A stretch of 44,394 nt of DNA from Sporomusaceae bacterium (lineage in GTDB: Bacteria > Bacillota > Negativicutes > UBA1444). Below the pieces are notes generated by a model. The model was not told where the DNA came from, did not search any database, and saw nothing but the letters and a program-made list of their open reading frames with translations. The stretch's first letter is position 1. Each line of letters opens with the position of its first letter. This document shows, in pieces, positions 26,241-35,382 of the stretch. The DNA lies in assembly GCA_018434355.1 (NCBI GenBank), contig JAHDPL010000013.1, positions 1-44,394 of the forward strand, written 5' to 3'. Made by a program: the position numbers and the translations under genes.

Positions 26241-26777
26241 CTAACGATTCATCGCTTTGCGAAGTCGTGGCGCCAGTAACAGCGCAATCGGCAACCCGAC
26301 CCCGGAAGTCAAGAGCGAAGCCGGCATGTTGCTGATTGCCACAGCTAGGCTGCCGGTGACCTGCCACCAGGCTACCATATACCCGCCAAGGGTCCAGGCC
26401 GCTGCAACCAGGCAGCCGATTACGGCGCGCAACAACCAGCGCCGGTTTGCGTCAGAGTATTTCAGTTGTTCTTGCGGCCAGAGACCGTGAGCGATGGTTC
26501 CGGCCAGCAGGCCGGCGATGCCTTTGATAAAAAAAGACCAGGGAGTATAGGGTGAAAAACCCATCAATAAATCAAAGAAAGCTGAGCCGATGGCAGCTGA
26601 CAGCCCCGCATACACGCCGCCCTGCACAATTGCCACGGTAAACATGAATGCTGTGCCGAGATGAACCATCGCGCCGACGCCGAGCGGAATCTTCAACGAG
26701 GTGGCAATCGCGCACATGCCGGCCAGCACGCCGATGGTGACGGTATCTTTGATTGTTAGGCGACGTTTGTTATTCAT
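26241..26777 (-). CDS. ECF transporter S component, probably for vitamin B6
   Basis: 178 residues with about six hydrophobic segments. TIKDTVTIGVLAGMCAIATSLKI, GAMVHLGTAFMFTVAIVQG and AAIGSAFFDLLMG are typical of S components (substrate-binding membrane part of energy-coupling-factor importers). It would use an ECF module encoded elsewhere. The start at 26777 overlaps the pyridoxal kinase stop (ATGA) with GGAGGGG upstream, so it is tightly coupled to that gene; a pyridoxine/pyridoxal substrate is inferred from this pairing. A longer frame exists upstream but lies inside the kinase gene. Confidence 0.85.
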   Translation of the reverse strand: MNNKRRLTIKDTVTIGVLAGMCAIATSLKIPLGVGAMVHLGTAFMFTVAIVQGGVYAGLSAAIGSAFFDLLMGFSPYTPWSFFIKGIAGLLAGTIAHGLWPQEQLKYSDANRRWLLRAVIGCLVAAAWTLGGYMVAWWQVTGSLAVAISNMPASLLTSGVGLPIALLLAPRLRKAMNR

Positions 26778-27624
26778 GATTCCCCTCCAGCAAGTTCTTG
26801 AGCGAGGGTTCGAGCAGGACGCCTTCGCGGGCGGGCGAACCAGCGGCATAGGTCCGGGAGACCGCTGAAAATACAAACGAACCGGCCTTTTCCACCGCTT
26901 CCGGCAGGCAGACACCTCGCAGCAACGCTCCCAAAAGGATACTGGCAAATATGTCGCCGGTACCCGGATACCTTACCGGAATCAGATTGCTGGTGCAATG
27001 ATGAAAATGGCCCGTAATACGGTCGTAGCTAAGATTGGCAACCTGTTGGTCTCGCAGCGGCACGCCGGTTATAACGACTTGTCGCGGGCCCAGTCCGGAC
27101 AGCTTCATCAACCAGGGTTCCAGCAGTTTGGGGCGGCTGATTGGCGAAACATAAGGTTGGCCCAACAAAAAACAGGCTTCAGTGTAATTGGGCGTGATGA
27201 TGTCGGCCTGGCGAACTAGTTTTTTGATTTTTTCCTGCATCTGTCCGGTATATACGGAATAGAGCTTCCCTTCATCCCCCATGACCGGATCAACCAGGAC
27301 CAACGGGCGGCTGGCCGAAAAATCGCAAATTAGCTGCGACACGATTTCAATTTGCTCAGTTGAGGCGAGAAACCCGCTATAGATGCTGTCGAACTGAACG
27401 CCTTCCCGTCGCCAGTGCGCGGAAAAATCAGCGATATGCGAAGAAAAATCGCTGAAGGCGACAGCGGAAAAACCACCGAGATGAGTGCTGAGAATCGCCG
27501 TGGGAAGTGGGCAAGCCTGGATTCCCAGGCAGGACAGAATTGGCATGATGACGGTGAGCGAACAGCGTCCGACACATGACAAATCGTGAACAGCCAGAAC
27601 TTTTTTTGGTGGAACGGGGTTCAT
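26770..27624 (-). CDS. pdxY: Pyridoxamine/pyridoxal kinase
   Basis: 284 residues, standard for PdxK/PdxY of the ribokinase fold. VLAVHDLSCVGRCSLTV at the start, STHLGGFS, YSGFLAS, VLVDPVMGDEG and the anion-hole PGTGDIFASILLGALLRG with catalytic Asp. ATP-dependent phosphorylation of B6 vitamers in the cytoplasm. ATG 27624 is chosen because GGGAGG lies upstream at about 7 bases; TTG 27645 is further out and has none. First gene of a minus-strand group with the ECF S component and the GGDEF protein. Confidence 0.92.
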   Translation of the reverse strand: MNPVPPKKVLAVHDLSCVGRCSLTVIMPILSCLGIQACPLPTAILSTHLGGFSAVAFSDFSSHIADFSAHWRREGVQFDSIYSGFLASTEQIEIVSQLICDFSASRPLVLVDPVMGDEGKLYSVYTGQMQEKIKKLVRQADIITPNYTEACFLLGQPYVSPISRPKLLEPWLMKLSGLGPRQVVITGVPLRDQQVANLSYDRITGHFHHCTSNLIPVRYPGTGDIFASILLGALLRGVCLPEAVEKAGSFVFSAVSRTYAAGSPAREGVLLEPSLKNLLEGNHE

Positions 27625-27780
27625 AAGGGGCCTCCCAACGGACAAATTTGCCGGACTGCCGTCAATTGGCAGGAAGAATCATGCAGTGTCTCGAAAATAT
27701 TCCGATACAATTATACTTGCTGAGTATCTGTCTGTATAGCAAATTGTTGACCATTCTAATGAAGATGAGGGAGGTTTACC

Positions 27781-28196: not shown

Positions 28197-29753
28197 ATGA
28201 GTGTATTAAATGTAGAAAACGTGACGCACGGGTTTGGCGCCCGCCGCATTTTGGAAGACGCCTCGTTTCGCTTGCTCAAAGGCGAACACGTAGGCCTGAT
28301 CGGAGCTAACGGCGAAGGCAAGTCCACCTTCCTCAGCATCATTACCGGGCAACTGCAGCCCGATGCAGGCAAGGTCGAGTGGTCCAACCGCGTGACCGTC
28401 GGTTATCTGGACCAGCATGCCGTGCTGGCCAAAGGCAAAAGCATCCGCGACATCCTGCGGACCGCTTTTCAACAGATGTTCGACTGGGAAGCCGAGATGC
28501 TGGCGATTTACGACAAGATGGCCGAAGCTGCGCCGGATGAATTAGATAAAATGATGGAAGATGTCGGCGAATTGCAGGATCTTCTGGAACACGGCGGTTT
28601 TTACATGCTCGATGCCAAAATTGAAGAAGTGGCCAACGGGCTGGGGCTTGGCGATGTCGGCCTGGACCGGGATGTCAGCGACCTAAGCGGCGGTCAGCGG
28701 ACCAAAGTGCTGCTGACCAAACTGCTGCTGCAAAATCCGTCGATCCTGATTCTTGACGAACCGACCAACTTTCTCGATGTAGAGCACATCGAATGGTTGA
28801 AACGTTATTTGATCAACTATGAAAATAGTTTCATCTTGGTGTCGCACGATATTCCCTTCATCAATGAAGTGGTGAATGTCATCTATCATGTGGAAAACAC
28901 CGTGCTAACCCGTTACACCGGTAACTACGAGCAATTCCAGGCGTTGTACGCAATCAAGAAGAGCCAGGAGTCCCGGGCGTTTGAACGGCAACAGCAGGAA
29001 GTCGAGCGACTGGAAGACTTTATCGCCCGCAACAAAGCGCGGGTAGCGACGCGCGGCATGGCCAACAGCCGGCAAAAATGGCTGGACAAGATGGAAGTGC
29101 TGGAAAAACCGCGCGAGAAGCCGAAGCCGACCTTCCAGTTCCGCGAGGCGCGTACACCGGCCAGGGTGATTGTGGAGGCGGAAAATCTAGTTCTCGGTTA
29201 TGACGAGGCGCTGACCCGTCCGGTCAAACTGCAGCTGGAACGGGGCAAGAAAGTCGCGATACGCGGCGTCAACGGACTGGGAAAAACCACGCTGTTGAAG
29301 ACGTTGCTGGGGCAGTTGCCAGCTTTTGCCGGCAAGGTCGAGTTGGGCGATTATCTATTCCCTGGCTATTTTGAGCAGGAGTCCGGTCGTGACAACACGA
29401 ATACCGCAATGGAAGAAATCTGGCAGGAATACCCCGGCATGGGCAACGGGGAAGTGCGGGCGGCGCTGGCCCGCTGCGGCCTGACCAACGAGCATATCAC
29501 CAGCCAGATGCAAGTGCTCAGCGGCGGTGAAAATGCGAAGGTGCGCCTGTGCAAACTGATGCTGAAGGAAGTCAACTGGCTGGTGCTGGACGAACCGACC
29601 AACCACCTCGATGTTGATGCCAAGGCGGAACTGAAACGGGCATTGATCGAGTTCAAAGGAACGATTCTGCTGGTGTCGCACGAACCGGATTTTTATGAAG
29701 ACTGGGTCAGCGATATCTGGAACGTGGAAGACTGGACAACCAAAGTAATCTAA
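28197..29753 (+). CDS. ABC-F family ATPase (YkpA/YbiT-like)
   Basis: 518 residues, two ABC domains. Domain 1: Walker A GANGEGKST, signature LSGGQRTK, Walker B ILILDEPTN. Domain 2: Walker A GVNGLGKTT, signature LSGGENAK, Walker B LVLDEPTNHLD. Between them is the charged linker (about residue 250-310) typical of ABC-F proteins, which act on ribosomes and lack membrane domains. Length and linker fit the YbiT/YkpA branch, not a known antibiotic-resistance type, but resistance cannot be excluded. ATG 28197 with GGGGAGAG upstream. 32 bases before ridA. Confidence 0.93.
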   Translation: MSVLNVENVTHGFGARRILEDASFRLLKGEHVGLIGANGEGKSTFLSIITGQLQPDAGKVEWSNRVTVGYLDQHAVLAKGKSIRDILRTAFQQMFDWEAEMLAIYDKMAEAAPDELDKMMEDVGELQDLLEHGGFYMLDAKIEEVANGLGLGDVGLDRDVSDLSGGQRTKVLLTKLLLQNPSILILDEPTNFLDVEHIEWLKRYLINYENSFILVSHDIPFINEVVNVIYHVENTVLTRYTGNYEQFQALYAIKKSQESRAFERQQQEVERLEDFIARNKARVATRGMANSRQKWLDKMEVLEKPREKPKPTFQFREARTPARVIVEAENLVLGYDEALTRPVKLQLERGKKVAIRGVNGLGKTTLLKTLLGQLPAFAGKVELGDYLFPGYFEQESGRDNTNTAMEEIWQEYPGMGNGEVRAALARCGLTNEHITSQMQVLSGGENAKVRLCKLMLKEVNWLVLDEPTNHLDVDAKAELKRALIEFKGTILLVSHEPDFYEDWVSDIWNVEDWTTKVI

Positions 29754-30190: not shown

Positions 30191-30979
30191 ATGTTTTCAT
30201 TGGAAAAAGCAATGCAGGAGATGCAGGTGGTTGCCCGCAAAGTCGGTGCAATGCAGCGGGAAAACCTCGGTCGGCTGGATCTGGCAATGGACCGCAAAAC
30301 GACCAGCATCGACCTGGTCACGGAGATTGACCGGTGTTCGGACGATATGATCGTCGGTTATTTGCGGCAACAATATCCTGCCCATGCGATTTTGGCCGAA
30401 GAATCCGGCGCTTCCGGGCAGGATTCGGAGTACCGCTGGGTGATCGACCCGGTGGACGGCACGACAAATTATGCCCAGGGGTTGCCGATTTTTGCCGTAT
30501 CGATCGCCTTGGAGCATCGCGGTGAAAAAGTTCTGGGGATTGTATATGCTCCGGTGACAGATGAAATGTTCAGCGCAATCAAGGGACAGGGTTCTTACCG
30601 CAACGGGAAGCGACTCCAGGTCGGCGGCAAGAGCGAATTGATCGAATGCGTGCTGGCGACAGGCTTTCCTTATGACATCGCCACTCATCCGGTCAACAAC
30701 ATCGACTATTTTACCAGCTTGGCCAAGAAAACACGGGCAGTCCGTCGGATGGGCTCTGCGGCTTATGATTTGGCCTGCGTGGCATCCGGCGGGTTTGACG
30801 GGTTCTGGGAAATGAACCTGTCGCCATGGGATGTTGCGGCCAGCATTCTGATTGTGACGGAGGCCGGCGGTGACGTAGTGCCGTTTCGTGATGACCGAAA
30901 AATTTCGATCGTGGCCGGCAATCCGCTGATCAGTCAAAAAATTCTTGCTGCGTTGCGCGACGTGGACCGGCTTGCATAG
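30191..30979 (+). CDS. suhB: Inositol monophosphatase family protein
   Basis: 262 residues. EIDRCSDD, ILAEESGA, the metal motif WVIDPVDGTTNYAQGLP and WDVAASILIVTEAGGDV are the full set of Mg2+-dependent IMPase/FBPase-like motifs. Acts on a sugar- or inositol-phosphate; could also be a NADP phosphatase. ATG 30191 follows AGAGGCG. The promoter of the next operon (30972-31000) begins within its last codons. Confidence 0.9.
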   Translation: MFSLEKAMQEMQVVARKVGAMQRENLGRLDLAMDRKTTSIDLVTEIDRCSDDMIVGYLRQQYPAHAILAEESGASGQDSEYRWVIDPVDGTTNYAQGLPIFAVSIALEHRGEKVLGIVYAPVTDEMFSAIKGQGSYRNGKRLQVGGKSELIECVLATGFPYDIATHPVNNIDYFTSLAKKTRAVRRMGSAAYDLACVASGGFDGFWEMNLSPWDVAASILIVTEAGGDVVPFRDDRKISIVAGNPLISQKILAALRDVDRLA

Positions 30980-31000
30980 AGCCGACCGAAATGATATCAT
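30972..31000 (+). promoter_or_regulatory. Promoter of the TPP-regulated operon
   Basis: TTGCAT at 30972-30977 and TATCAT at 30995-31000 with a 17-base spacer. It overlaps the end of the IMPase gene and lies about 25 bases before the riboswitch. Confidence 0.6.
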
Positions 31001-31021
31001 GGATCCGTAACAAAAGAAGTG

Positions 31022-31114
31022 AAGCTAGGGGAGCCGGAGGGGCCGGCTGAGAGTCAGACCGTTGTCTGTTACCCTTGACCTGATCTGGATAATACCAGCG
31101 TAGGAACAGCGACA
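31022..31114 (+). promoter_or_regulatory. TPP riboswitch (THI element)
   Basis: Contains the conserved AGGGGAGCC, CCGGCTGAGA (pyrimidine-sensor region), ACCCTTGACCTGATCTGG and ATAATACCAGCGTAGGA blocks of THI elements in the right order. The conserved CTGAGA and CTGATCTGGATAATACC bind the two ends of thiamine pyrophosphate. Off by default when TPP is bound, through the terminator at 31132-31167. Confidence 0.96.
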
Positions 31115-31131
31115 ACTTGCAACGACATTTG

Positions 31132-31167
31132 GCAGCGCATTCCTACCGGGATGCGCTGCTTGTTTTT
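31132..31167 (+). terminator. Terminator of the TPP riboswitch expression platform
   Basis: GCAGCGCAT pairs with ATGCGCTGC around a 10-base loop, followed by TTGTTTTT, 18 bases downstream of the aptamer and before thiW. Fits transcriptional control. Confidence 0.85.
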
Positions 31168-31195
31168 ATGGGCCGAGTGAAACGGAGGAATGACG

Positions 31196-31696
31196 ATGGA
31201 AACAAGAAAATTGACGTTTACCGCACTGTTTATCGCCGTGGGTGTATTATCGGCCCATCTGGTCTATATTCCCGTCGGCGTAGCCAAGTGTTTTCCGGTG
31301 CAGCATGCGATCAATGTGCTGCTGGCGGTGCTGCTGGGAACCCGTTATTCGTTGGGGGCGGCGTTTGGCGTGTCTGTGCTGCGCAATATTCTCGGCACCG
31401 GTTCGCTGCTGGCGTTTCCCGGCAGTATGATCGGGGCGGCGCTGGCCGGTATCCTTTATGCGCGGACACGCAGCATTTGGGGCGCGGTAGTGGGGGAAAT
31501 CATCGGTACAGGTATTATTGGCGGACTGGTCGCCTATCCGGTGGCAAAAGTATTTCTAGGCTCGGGCGTCGGTGCGATGTTTTTTGTGGTGCCGTTTCTG
31601 GTCAGCACAGTCGGCGGCAGCATGATTGCCTGGCTACTTTACCATACGCCGGTGACGGCGTTTTTGCAGGAGCGGTTGGGCCAACGAGGCCGCTAG
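31196..31696 (+). CDS. thiW: ThiW, ECF S component for thiamine precursor (thiazole)
   Basis: 166 residues, about five to six hydrophobic segments. The stretches YIPVGVAKCFPVQHAINVLL and SVLRNILGTGSLLAFPGSMI are diagnostic for ThiW, the substrate-binding part of an ECF importer for the thiazole moiety. Needs an energy-coupling module from elsewhere. ATG 31196 is preferred over ATG 31190, as GGAGG ends 7 bases before the former. Directly downstream of the TPP riboswitch, so repressed by TPP. Confidence 0.92.
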   Translation: METRKLTFTALFIAVGVLSAHLVYIPVGVAKCFPVQHAINVLLAVLLGTRYSLGAAFGVSVLRNILGTGSLLAFPGSMIGAALAGILYARTRSIWGAVVGEIIGTGIIGGLVAYPVAKVFLGSGVGAMFFVVPFLVSTVGGSMIAWLLYHTPVTAFLQERLGQRGR

Positions 31697-31737
31697 ATTT
31701 CGAAAGAAAAATATACAGGGAATATGGGGGCCATAAC

Positions 31738-33399
31738 GTGGAGTTCAATGCGCAAATCGGGGATAAAATCAAGGCGCTGGCGATCGAACTGACCCGGATT
31801 CGCAGCGTAGTCGGAACGACAGGCGAAATTGCCGTCGCCGAAAAAATCTATGAATATTTGGCGCAGCTCGACTATTTCCGGCAGCATCCCGACCGGCTGC
31901 GGCTGGTTCCCGTAAGGGATGACGAGTTGGGACGAATGAACGTATTCGCGATGATTGAAGGCAAGCCCTCACCAACGCAGGATACGCTGTTGTGCATCGG
32001 CCATATCGATACAGTCGGTGTAGCCGATTATGGCGGGCTTCAAGAATTGGCGACCGATCCGGCTGCATTGAAGCAAACCCTGGCGGCGGCTACTAAATTC
32101 AGTGAACCGGCGCTGTCGGAGATATTATCCGACCGCTGGCTTTTGGGCCGCGGCATTTTGGATATGAAAACCGGCGTAGCGGCGCTGATGGTGCTCATGG
32201 AGTATTATGCCAGGCAACCGGAGGCGTTGACGGGGAATTTGGTGTTTTTTGCTGTGCCCGATGAAGAGGGAAATTCGGCAGGGATGCTGTCGGCGGTCGA
32301 GGATCTCGCCGCATTGCAGGCGAAACGCGGCTGGAATTATATCGCCGCCATCGATACCGACTTCATGACCTTTCGCTATCCGGGCGACGAGAATCGCTAT
32401 GTCTATGTCGGTACAACCGGAAAATTATTGCCGTGCTTCTATATCTATGGCGAAGAGACCCACGTCGGCGAGCCGTTCAACGGACTGGACGCCAACTTGC
32501 TAGCTTCGGAAGTTCTGCAGCGGATCGACCTCAACCCGGAAATCTGCGACATCGCCGATGGCGAAGTTGCCTTGCCGCCAATCAGCCTGCATCAGCGCGA
32601 CAACAAGACCGAGTATTCGGTCCAGACAGCCAATACGGTCAATCTGTACTTCAACTATCCGACCCATTGCAGCGAGCCGGCCGAGGTGCTGGAAAAATGC
32701 CGCGTCAAGGCGGCGGAAGCATTCGCTGCTGTGATTGTGCGGCTGAATATTGATTATGAACGCTACTGCGCCCTGAGTCATATTCCGTTCCGGCGCTTGC
32801 CCTGGCAGTCAAACGTGATGACATACGACGAACTGTACCAGATGGTGAAGCGGGAACGAGGCGAGGAGATTGACCGGATTCTGGCGGAACTGATTGAAAC
32901 CCTGCGCGAGCGGCGGGCCGATGATCGTGAAGTGTCGATGGCGATTGTCAATGAAGTCCACAAGCACTGTTCGGACAAGGATTCGAAGATTGTCGTGTAC
33001 TTTGCGCCACCCTATTACCCGCATAATTTTGTCCGCGACGGCGACCCGCGTAGCGACCGGCTGCTGGCCGCGGTCAGGCAGGCGGTGGCGGAGGCGCGGC
33101 AAAACTTTGACTATCCTATTGTCACCCGCAAATTCTATCCCTATATTTCCGATCTCAGTTACTGCGGAATCGCCGCTGCCGAACACATGGACAAACTGAC
33201 TGAAAACATGCCGGCCTGGCAGCTGACCTACCGCTTGCCGGTGAAAGCGATTCAAGCGATCAGCATGCCGGTGGTCAATATCGGCCCTTACGGCAAAGAT
33301 GCTCACAAGCTGTCCGAGCGGGTCGATACATTTTATTCTTATGATGCCATGCCGCTGATTCTGTGGCGGACGGTGCAGCGTCTGCTGGGAGCGAGCTAA
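31738..33399 (+). CDS. rocB: M20-family hydrolase, RocB-like
   Basis: 553 residues. Metal-binding residues of M20 zinc hydrolases are seen in CIGHIDTVG, GRGILDMKTGVAAL and VPDEEGNSAGM, with a long C-terminal half characteristic of RocB (arginine-utilisation locus protein of unknown exact reaction). Probably removes an amide-bound group from an amino acid or peptide in the cytoplasm. GTG 31738 has GGGGG about 7 bases upstream; the frame is open far upstream through thiW but without a start that makes sense. It begins 41 bases after thiW with no terminator between them. Confidence 0.9.
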   Translation: MEFNAQIGDKIKALAIELTRIRSVVGTTGEIAVAEKIYEYLAQLDYFRQHPDRLRLVPVRDDELGRMNVFAMIEGKPSPTQDTLLCIGHIDTVGVADYGGLQELATDPAALKQTLAAATKFSEPALSEILSDRWLLGRGILDMKTGVAALMVLMEYYARQPEALTGNLVFFAVPDEEGNSAGMLSAVEDLAALQAKRGWNYIAAIDTDFMTFRYPGDENRYVYVGTTGKLLPCFYIYGEETHVGEPFNGLDANLLASEVLQRIDLNPEICDIADGEVALPPISLHQRDNKTEYSVQTANTVNLYFNYPTHCSEPAEVLEKCRVKAAEAFAAVIVRLNIDYERYCALSHIPFRRLPWQSNVMTYDELYQMVKRERGEEIDRILAELIETLRERRADDREVSMAIVNEVHKHCSDKDSKIVVYFAPPYYPHNFVRDGDPRSDRLLAAVRQAVAEARQNFDYPIVTRKFYPYISDLSYCGIAAAEHMDKLTENMPAWQLTYRLPVKAIQAISMPVVNIGPYGKDAHKLSERVDTFYSYDAMPLILWRTVQRLLGAS

Positions 33400-33414
33400 C
33401 AGGAGGGCCTTTCG

Positions 33415-34500
33415 ATGAAATTTGCGATGCCGAAATATATCACCCCCGATTTTGACGCGCTTGGCCTGCGCAATGCTGCCGATGCAAAGGTTGGTGTTGT
33501 GGTGAAGCCAGGTGTTGCACCGGAAAATTTCCATGCCACGACGATTTTCCCGGAATACTTTCGGATTGGTGGTAATTGGCTGCTGTTGGAACAGAGCCGG
33601 ATGGACGGAGTGGTCGTGCTGTCGGCAGACAACCGGCTTGAAGTAAAGGAGTTTCGACGTCTTGCGGTAGGCGACCGCGTGGTTGTAGGCCGCAGCGAGG
33701 ACGGCAGCGAAGGAATTTATGTTCATGCGACCGGCTTTCGTCGCAACGATTGCGAAGGCGACACTTTTGCCTTTCGCACCGGGCGGTCGCGTGAAACCGC
33801 TTATTCACGCGATTACGACCGTCTATATGAACTATTGCGCTTCGAAAAGGAGCACGGCTATATCGTCTGGGTACTGGGGCCTGCAGTCGTTTTTGACTCC
33901 GACTCCAAGCAAGCGATGATTTCCCTAATCGAAAATGGCTATGTCGATGCGATTCTGGCCGGAAATGCGCTGGCGACGCATGATCTGGAAGGGGCGATCT
34001 TCAAGACGGCGCTCGGGCAAGACATTTACACGCAGGAAAGTTGCTGCAACGGTCACTACCACCATTTGGACGTGTTGAACCAGGCCCGTGAACATGCGAC
34101 CTTGGCGGAATTTGTCGCGGCTAAAAATATCAGCGACAGCGTGGTGGCGGCCTGTGTACGGACCGGAACGCCGATGGTGTTGGCTGGTTCGATCCGCGAC
34201 GACGGTCCGCTGCCGGAAGTGTTGGCGGACGCCTATGCGGCGCAGAACGCGATGCGCCGGCATGCCAGACAGGCAACGACGATGATTTGCCTGGCAACGC
34301 AACTGCATTCGATCGCTTCCGGCAACATGACCCCGGCGTACCAAGTGATTGAGGGTCGTGTGCGACCGGTTTTCCTCTATAGCGTCGATGTTTCCGAGTT
34401 TGCCGTGAACAAGTTGAAAGACCGCGGTTCGCTGGAAGTGACTTCAATCGTGACCAATATTCAGGATTTTTTGGTTCATATCCAGCGGGAATTGGTGTGA
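33415..34500 (+). CDS. Ornithine cyclodeaminase-like protein (TIGR00300/ArgZ C-terminal type)
   Basis: 361 residues. Two parts: an N-terminal beta domain (VAPENFHATTIFPEYFRI, LAVGDRVVVG) and a Rossmann-like domain with VWVLGPAVVFDS, GYVDAILAGNALATHDLEGA, GHYHHL and VLAGSIRDDGPLPEVLADAY. This is the LOR/SDH-type ornithine cyclodeaminase module that, in cyanobacterial ArgZ/AgrE, is fused to an arginine dihydrolase; that N-terminal partner is absent here. Expected reaction ornithine to proline and ammonia with NAD+, but not shown. ATG 33415 has AGGAGGG upstream. Between rocB (15 bases) and the UroD-like gene (7 bases). Confidence 0.85.
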   Translation: MKFAMPKYITPDFDALGLRNAADAKVGVVVKPGVAPENFHATTIFPEYFRIGGNWLLLEQSRMDGVVVLSADNRLEVKEFRRLAVGDRVVVGRSEDGSEGIYVHATGFRRNDCEGDTFAFRTGRSRETAYSRDYDRLYELLRFEKEHGYIVWVLGPAVVFDSDSKQAMISLIENGYVDAILAGNALATHDLEGAIFKTALGQDIYTQESCCNGHYHHLDVLNQAREHATLAEFVAAKNISDSVVAACVRTGTPMVLAGSIRDDGPLPEVLADAYAAQNAMRRHARQATTMICLATQLHSIASGNMTPAYQVIEGRVRPVFLYSVDVSEFAVNKLKDRGSLEVTSIVTNIQDFLVHIQRELV

Positions 34501-34507
34501 GCGAGCG

Positions 34508-35338
34508 ATGAGCAGCGTCGGCGGGAAACCTGGCCGGGAGCGGCTATTGAAGCTGTTGGCAGGAGATATGTCCGAGCGGACGCTGCGTGGTGAAATCTGG
34601 CCGTTACCGGGTGGCGGGGATGCTGATGAAATCGTTGCTGCCGCTAAAGGACTGCAAGCCGATTTCTGCTTTTTTGACCGCTTGCCGGGTGCGGGCGGCA
34701 AGGCGCGGGCATTGGGGCTGGCAGCGGGCGCCGTGGTGAATGGTCCCTGGCAACGCTGGCTGAATGAAGTCGGCTGGCAGGAAGCGATGCTGCAACTGGC
34801 CAAGGATAGTGAACTGCTGCGGCAGGGGCTGGCGGCGGCGGCGCAGGGGGCCAGGCAAGAAATCGCCGATTGGCAGGCGACCGGCATCGAGTTGGTATTG
34901 CTGGCCGATGACATCGCTTATGCAGTCGGACCGTATATGTCACCTCAACAGCTGGAGCGATTCTTGCTGCCGCATTACCGCGAACTCGCAGCGATCGGTG
35001 CGTTAGCCGGACTTCCCGTCGGTTTTCACAGTGATGGGTGTGTCGATTTATTGTTGCCCGGTTTGCGGCAGGCCGGATTTCGGTTTTTTTCATTGGAACC
35101 GGAAGGGACCGATCCGCTGCGCGCCTGGGATATTCTTGGCGAAAAGTGGCCTTTGTTTTCCGGGCTGCCGGCGAATTGGCTGATGCCGGGCGGCTTTTAT
35201 CCTAATCGGGAAGGCGAGATTCTGCGTGGGTGGCTTTCGGCCGGACCGCTGGTTCTGAGTTCTGCCTGCGGCCTGTATCATGCCGAGGCGGCGTCGGCTT
35301 TGCGCGAAATCTATCACTGGCTTGACCAGAAAAAATAA
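34508..35338 (+). CDS. Uroporphyrinogen decarboxylase/MtaA-family protein
   Basis: 276 residues, shorter than HemE (about 340-360). The C-terminal half is clear: LVLLADDIAYAVGPYMSPQQ, FLLPHYRELAAI, GFHSDGCVDLLLPGLRQAGF and LSSACGLY. The His and Cys in HSDGC plus the later Cys in SSACG resemble the zinc ligands of MtaA/CmuA-type corrinoid methyltransferases more than HemE, whose N-terminal substrate motifs are not visible. It may move a methyl group or act on an unknown substrate. No clear ribosome site; ATG 34508 follows rocB/OCD genes closely, so translation is probably coupled. Ends before the terminator at 35354. Confidence 0.78.
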   Translation: MSSVGGKPGRERLLKLLAGDMSERTLRGEIWPLPGGGDADEIVAAAKGLQADFCFFDRLPGAGGKARALGLAAGAVVNGPWQRWLNEVGWQEAMLQLAKDSELLRQGLAAAAQGARQEIADWQATGIELVLLADDIAYAVGPYMSPQQLERFLLPHYRELAAIGALAGLPVGFHSDGCVDLLLPGLRQAGFRFFSLEPEGTDPLRAWDILGEKWPLFSGLPANWLMPGGFYPNREGEILRGWLSAGPLVLSSACGLYHAEAASALREIYHWLDQKK

Positions 35339-35353
35339 TGATCAAAATATTTT

Positions 35354-35382
35354 AATCCTGCTGAAAAATCAGCAGGATTTTT
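35354..35382 (+). terminator. Intrinsic terminator of the thiW-to-UroD operon
   Basis: AATCCTGCTGA pairs with TCAGCAGGATT around AAAA, followed by TTT. Confidence 0.9.

Follow-up and report, generated by a model that had tools for sequence, protein, structure and literature searches.

Ornithine-type genes behind thiW and a TPP riboswitch: probable control by location rather than a new vitamin B1 pathway

Why should three genes, none of which is a known thiamine gene, follow thiW behind a TPP riboswitch? This arrangement is found on contig JAHDPL010000013.1 of a Sporomusaceae bacterium, of which a stretch of 44,394 nucleotides was analysed (the window). The genes code for a RocB-type M20 amidohydrolase, a putative ornithine cyclodeaminase (OCD) and a UroD/MtaA-like protein (gene 4). 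A first-pass annotation had read them as a trio that might process thiamine breakdown products, possibly in an undescribed pathway.

The leader contains a TPP riboswitch aptamer at 31017-31124 (+), which is the sole Rfam match in the window and covers positions 1-105 of the 105 positions of RF00059 with 66.5 bits (gathering score 54.3; E 5e-11). It is followed by an intrinsic terminator at 31131-31160 (+), assigned as the expression platform, with a 13-pair stem, a loop of 4 and a T-rich tail (TGTTTTTATG), and this hairpin is also present in the predicted fold of the leader (z about -2). In a congeneric genome (Negativicutes bacterium UBA1444, loci L032/L039), the aptamer is nearly identical and the hairpin is retained with changed arms. 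The aptamer and the terminator that had been annotated before thiW are thus supported by the Rfam match and the hairpin scan, but the promoter annotated together with them is only a weak candidate (TTGCAT-17-TATCAT), recognised by eye and lying under the scan threshold. Two further TPP riboswitches in the genome of the window precede thiC and thiM, and ordinary thiamine synthesis and thiazole salvage therefore lie elsewhere in the genome.

The thiW gene (31196-31696, +) codes for an ECF S component for thiazole and passes TIGR02359 with 155.7 bits (cut-off 84.35), with 174 bits for PF09512. Its start is most likely 31196 rather than 31190, as the ATG at 31190 lies directly against the Shine-Dalgarno sequence and is not retained in L039, in which a GTG aligns with position 31196. 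ThiW was found in 138 of 200 genomes of the class; the protein of the window is 47-79% identical to those of Negativicutes thiW units, and thiW and thiM-thiW units of Negativicutes share the upstream TPP aptamer in some of the scanned loci (L110, L119, L122). Unlike these units, the window has three amino-acid-type genes after thiW, and its thiM is located elsewhere in the genome. The window also contains an S component gene of the ECF riboflavin type (PF07155, 89 bits; below the cut-offs of TIGR04002 and of the riboflavin equivalog), directly downstream of a pyridoxamine kinase gene (NF005491, 322 bits) at 26241-27645 (-), and it may serve as vitamin B6 transporter. An ABC-F protein is encoded at 28197-29753 (+); it scores 398 bits with NF000355, the ribosomal protection-like ABC-F family (cut-off 380), and reaches no resistance subfamily cut-off.

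Are the three genes transcribed together with thiW? All four lie on the plus strand, separated by gaps of 41 bases (thiW end 31696, rocB start 31738), 15 bases (rocB end 33399, OCD start 33415) and 7 bases (OCD end 34500, gene 4 start 34508), and behind gene 4 there is a terminator at 35354-35379 (+) with an 11-pair stem plus T run, which is not clearly kept in L039. Reading the sequence again, we obtained the same gaps and the same terminator as the first-pass annotation, and its view of a single unit behind the TPP leader is probable, as our scans recognised no internal promoter or terminator. In the gap between thiW and rocB, promoter-like sites that reach 9/12 are absent; one 10/12 site within rocB (33119) does not exceed what chance allows (7 found, 4.3 expected), and terminator-like matches inside genes are near chance as well (13 found, 8.6 expected, sd 2.7), with expected counts taken from the rate in shuffled sequence. 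Most likely, judged from this anatomy, the trio is co-transcribed with thiW by read-through from the promoter of the TPP riboswitch. A separate promoter of the ornithine-type genes, independent of the riboswitch, would find room at the end of thiW and in the 41 bases that follow, could escape promoter scans if it were non-consensus, and would agree with the fact that rocB relatives elsewhere have no TPP riboswitch, but the gap is devoid of promoter-like sites and poorly conserved in comparison to L039, and we therefore regard such a promoter as unlikely.

Gene 2 (31738-33399, +) encodes an M20 amidohydrolase of 553 aa. It matches PF01546 with 39.2 bits (cut-off 24.6), and an alignment of 11 sequences shows no variation in the motifs HxD, GRGxxDMK and DEE or in the His of GKDAH; the invariant residues H89, D91, D142, E176, E177 and H523 are, by analogy with the family, putative metal ligands. 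In so far, the label RocB-like M20 is appropriate. The name RocB itself follows a resemblance and has no model match behind it: only generic M20/ArgE/DapE models match, no equivalog model is passed (best ArgE/DapE, 45 bits; cut-off 217.6), and the structure prediction (pLDDT 40) is too poor for a fold search. RocB is known from the arginine operon of Bacillus subtilis. Literature searches for the function of RocB and for RocB in combination with cyanophycin gave no usable result and no described RocB reaction.

It is the neighbourhood of RocB in other genomes that points to a class of substrates. Relatives were detected in 99 of 398 genomes of a phylum sample (E 0.001 or better), many of them weak, and 42 loci were read, 1 congeneric and 41 from outside the genus. 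In 11 of these 41, ornithine genes (orr, oraS/E, ord, ortA/B or OCD) lie within 9.5 kb of RocB, which under random placement would be expected with a probability under 1 in 10^11 in a rough model that ignores genome relatedness. Representatives of these neighbours were checked by models (Orr-like 430-440 bits with a cut-off of 480, OraE 1380, OrtB 845, Ord 528), the others by tblastn to the representatives. Two of the closest RocB relatives (L085, L086; 60% identical) adjoin an Orr-like ornithine racemase gene; ord, ortA, ortB, oraS and an orr-like gene are near RocB in L094, L150 and L154; L097 has ord, ortA, ortB and oraS with no orr detected, its oraE extending beyond the part counted; and oraE is near RocB in L098, L151 and L156. 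Clusters for oxidative ornithine fermentation (orr, oraS/E, ord, ortA/B) thus can have a RocB relative of 36-60% identity within or beside them, but the genome of the window differs in having no OraE proper and in pairing RocB with an OCD. As ornithine racemase, the ornithine aminomutase operon and OCD are recurrent neighbours of RocB, the RocB substrate can be sought among ornithine and arginine conjugates.

The other 30 of the 41 loci have no ornithine genes near RocB, and several of them adjoin isoaspartyl dipeptidase or branched-chain transporter genes. In four related loci the partner of RocB is isoaspartyl dipeptidase, and dipeptides that contain arginine could be indicated by this pairing. 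In L086, a sigma-54 regulator beside RocB is nearest to PrdR, the proline reductase regulator, at a score below the PrdR cut-off. A P-loop protein of the CobW/CbiA type with an MGAAGRDFH motif and no NCBIfam match recurs near RocB (L089, L092, L093, L104, L085, L086, L098, L151, L156), in many of these loci accompanied by a PrdR-like sigma-54 regulator, and it may belong to a gene cluster for the catabolism of ornithine or arginine. In genome G326 (L096), a stretch of about 14 kb contains three paralogues of RocB; two of them are nearly alike and in opposite orientation, and the paralogues adjoin TRAP and amino-acid symporter genes.

Gene 3 (33415-34500, +) codes for an OCD variant that is putatively dependent on the nickel-pincer nucleotide (NPN). 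It passes NF052526, the 'putative NPN-dependent ornithine cyclodeaminase', with 593 bits (cut-off 440), which bears out the label ornithine-cyclodeaminase-like, and scores 202 bits with PF21570 and 237.7 bits with TIGR00300, the latter under the cut-off of 410.8. Structural relatives are the C-terminal domains of AgrE/ArgZ (6lrf, 6juy) and also 3c2q. The Rossmann domain is common to the OCD of the window, the AgrE/ArgZ C-terminal domain and the OCDs of NF052526/TIGR00300, but the N-terminal arginine dihydrolase domain of AgrE/ArgZ is missing. For the nickel-pincer cofactor, LarC and LarE were found in the genome; a literature search for an NPN-dependent ornithine cyclodeaminase gave no usable result. 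Genomes with the OCD variant are enriched for RocB (5 of 7, three of the five being from one genus, versus 68 of 398), and at the OCD-variant loci L033-L038, L040 and L041 neither rocB nor thiW adjoins. A role as sole proline route was rejected, as proB and proC are present, and an arginine deiminase route as ornithine source was rejected in the absence of ArcA from the genome. Candidates for an ornithine aminomutase were restricted to weaker matches below the OraE cut-off, and their size is what one would expect of lysine 5,6-aminomutase. For these three reasons, the OCD probably carries out a catabolic or interconversion step, as far as the gene content tells.

Gene 4 (34508-35338, +) is a diverged, genus-restricted protein of the UroD/MtaA superfamily that remains below every cut-off. 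It scores 23.1 bits with TIGR01463 (cut-off 235.4) and hence falls outside the MtaA/CmuA methyltransferase model, and with PF01208 (UroD) the window copy reaches 18.1 and the L039 copy 21.7 bits, both under 23.9. A weak profile match to the MtaA structure 4ay7 (E 1e-3) covers the 136 residues 94-229; the structure prediction (pLDDT 48) is too poor for a fold search. The zinc ligand set of MtaA is His-Cys-Cys. Gene 4 keeps the His as His174, but has Asp176 in place of the first Cys, the congeneric copy carries a Ser where gene 4 has Cys254, and the N-terminus of gene 4 is short. The label UroD/MtaA-like can therefore be retained for a diverged protein without two of the three zinc ligands of MtaA. 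Among 60 relatives, a close copy was found in its own genus only.

How far does this arrangement extend? The whole stretch including the leader is kept in the congeneric genome, with identities of 80% for ThiW, 80% for RocB, 81% for OCD and 65% for gene 4. Outside the genus, synteny of the trio with thiW was not seen, an outcome that the first-pass annotation itself had named as a refutation of its reading. A rocB-OCD pair, 65 and 71% identical, is adjacent in a Selenomonadales MAG (L042), at a locus that has neither thiW nor a TPP riboswitch. These data bear on the idea of a thiamine-linked pathway, in which the M20 enzyme would act like YlmB on thiamine degradation products within a functional salvage operon. 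The position after the TPP riboswitch and thiW, which is kept in the congeneric genome, and the membership of gene 2 in the M20 superfamily agree with such an operon. However, rocB-OCD occurs without thiW, RocB has ornithine-fermentation genes among its neighbours elsewhere, and no ThiW, ThiM or ThiC was found near RocB in the 41 non-genus loci. The 30 best-scoring loci with thiW in the class, which extend only some 1.5 kb to either side, contain no RocB, OCD or gene 4, while 8 of them have thiM. Moreover, the OCD is recognised by a curated model for ornithine cyclodeaminases, and among the 60 relatives it is present in only two genomes, both of its own genus, in spite of the wide occurrence of thiW in the class. 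The proposed processing of thiamine breakdown products hence finds no support, and we consider a thiamine-linked pathway very improbable.

We rather favour, with fair confidence, a rocB-OCD ornithine module plus a UroD-like gene that stands behind thiW and is co-transcribed from the riboswitch leader. The large margin of the OCD model, the presence of LarC and LarE, the ornithine neighbours of RocB, the L042 pair, the RocB enrichment in OCD-variant genomes and the order and leader kept in L039 argue for this reading. Against it are the 30 RocB loci without ornithine genes, the absence of ArcA, which leaves the source of ornithine doubtful, and the presence of proB and proC, which makes a need for the OCD in proline synthesis doubtful. 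In such an ornithine module, TPP scarcity would let transcription pass the leader into thiW and onward through the trio, as the anatomy suggests. RocB then probably acts on ornithine or arginine that is N-substituted or bound in a peptide and sets it free, and the OCD would convert ornithine to proline and ammonia, if families and neighbourhoods are a guide to substrate and activity in this organism. The common ancestor of the genus would already have had the module at this place after thiW, probably following its acquisition. As the genes look ornithine-type (plus one unknown) and the arrangement is seen in one genus only, the TPP control of the trio is probably due to location and does not indicate a new vitamin B1 pathway.

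Could the TPP control nevertheless be selected? The linkage to thiW, conserved across a protein divergence of 20-35%, leaves room for this. Thiamine status then would tune the flow from ornithine to proline in an amino-acid fermenter in which downstream 2-oxoacid metabolism needs TPP enzymes. Two genomes of the genus share leader, terminator and gene order, but no other lineage shows the arrangement, the unit itself contains no TPP enzyme, and a pair of related genomes does not allow one to tell selection from inertia; we therefore consider selected control quite improbable. Hardly better are the prospects that in this genus the conversion of ornithine to proline is truly under the control of the TPP riboswitch, with RocB as the enzyme that frees ornithine for it. 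If this were true, thiamine status would be coupled to amino-acid fermentation. While the finding is otherwise mostly ordinary, it removes a false lead, namely that of a new thiamine-breakdown pathway, and offers as its main useful lead the association of RocB with ornithine genes, which makes the RocB substrate testable within a class of compounds that can be screened.
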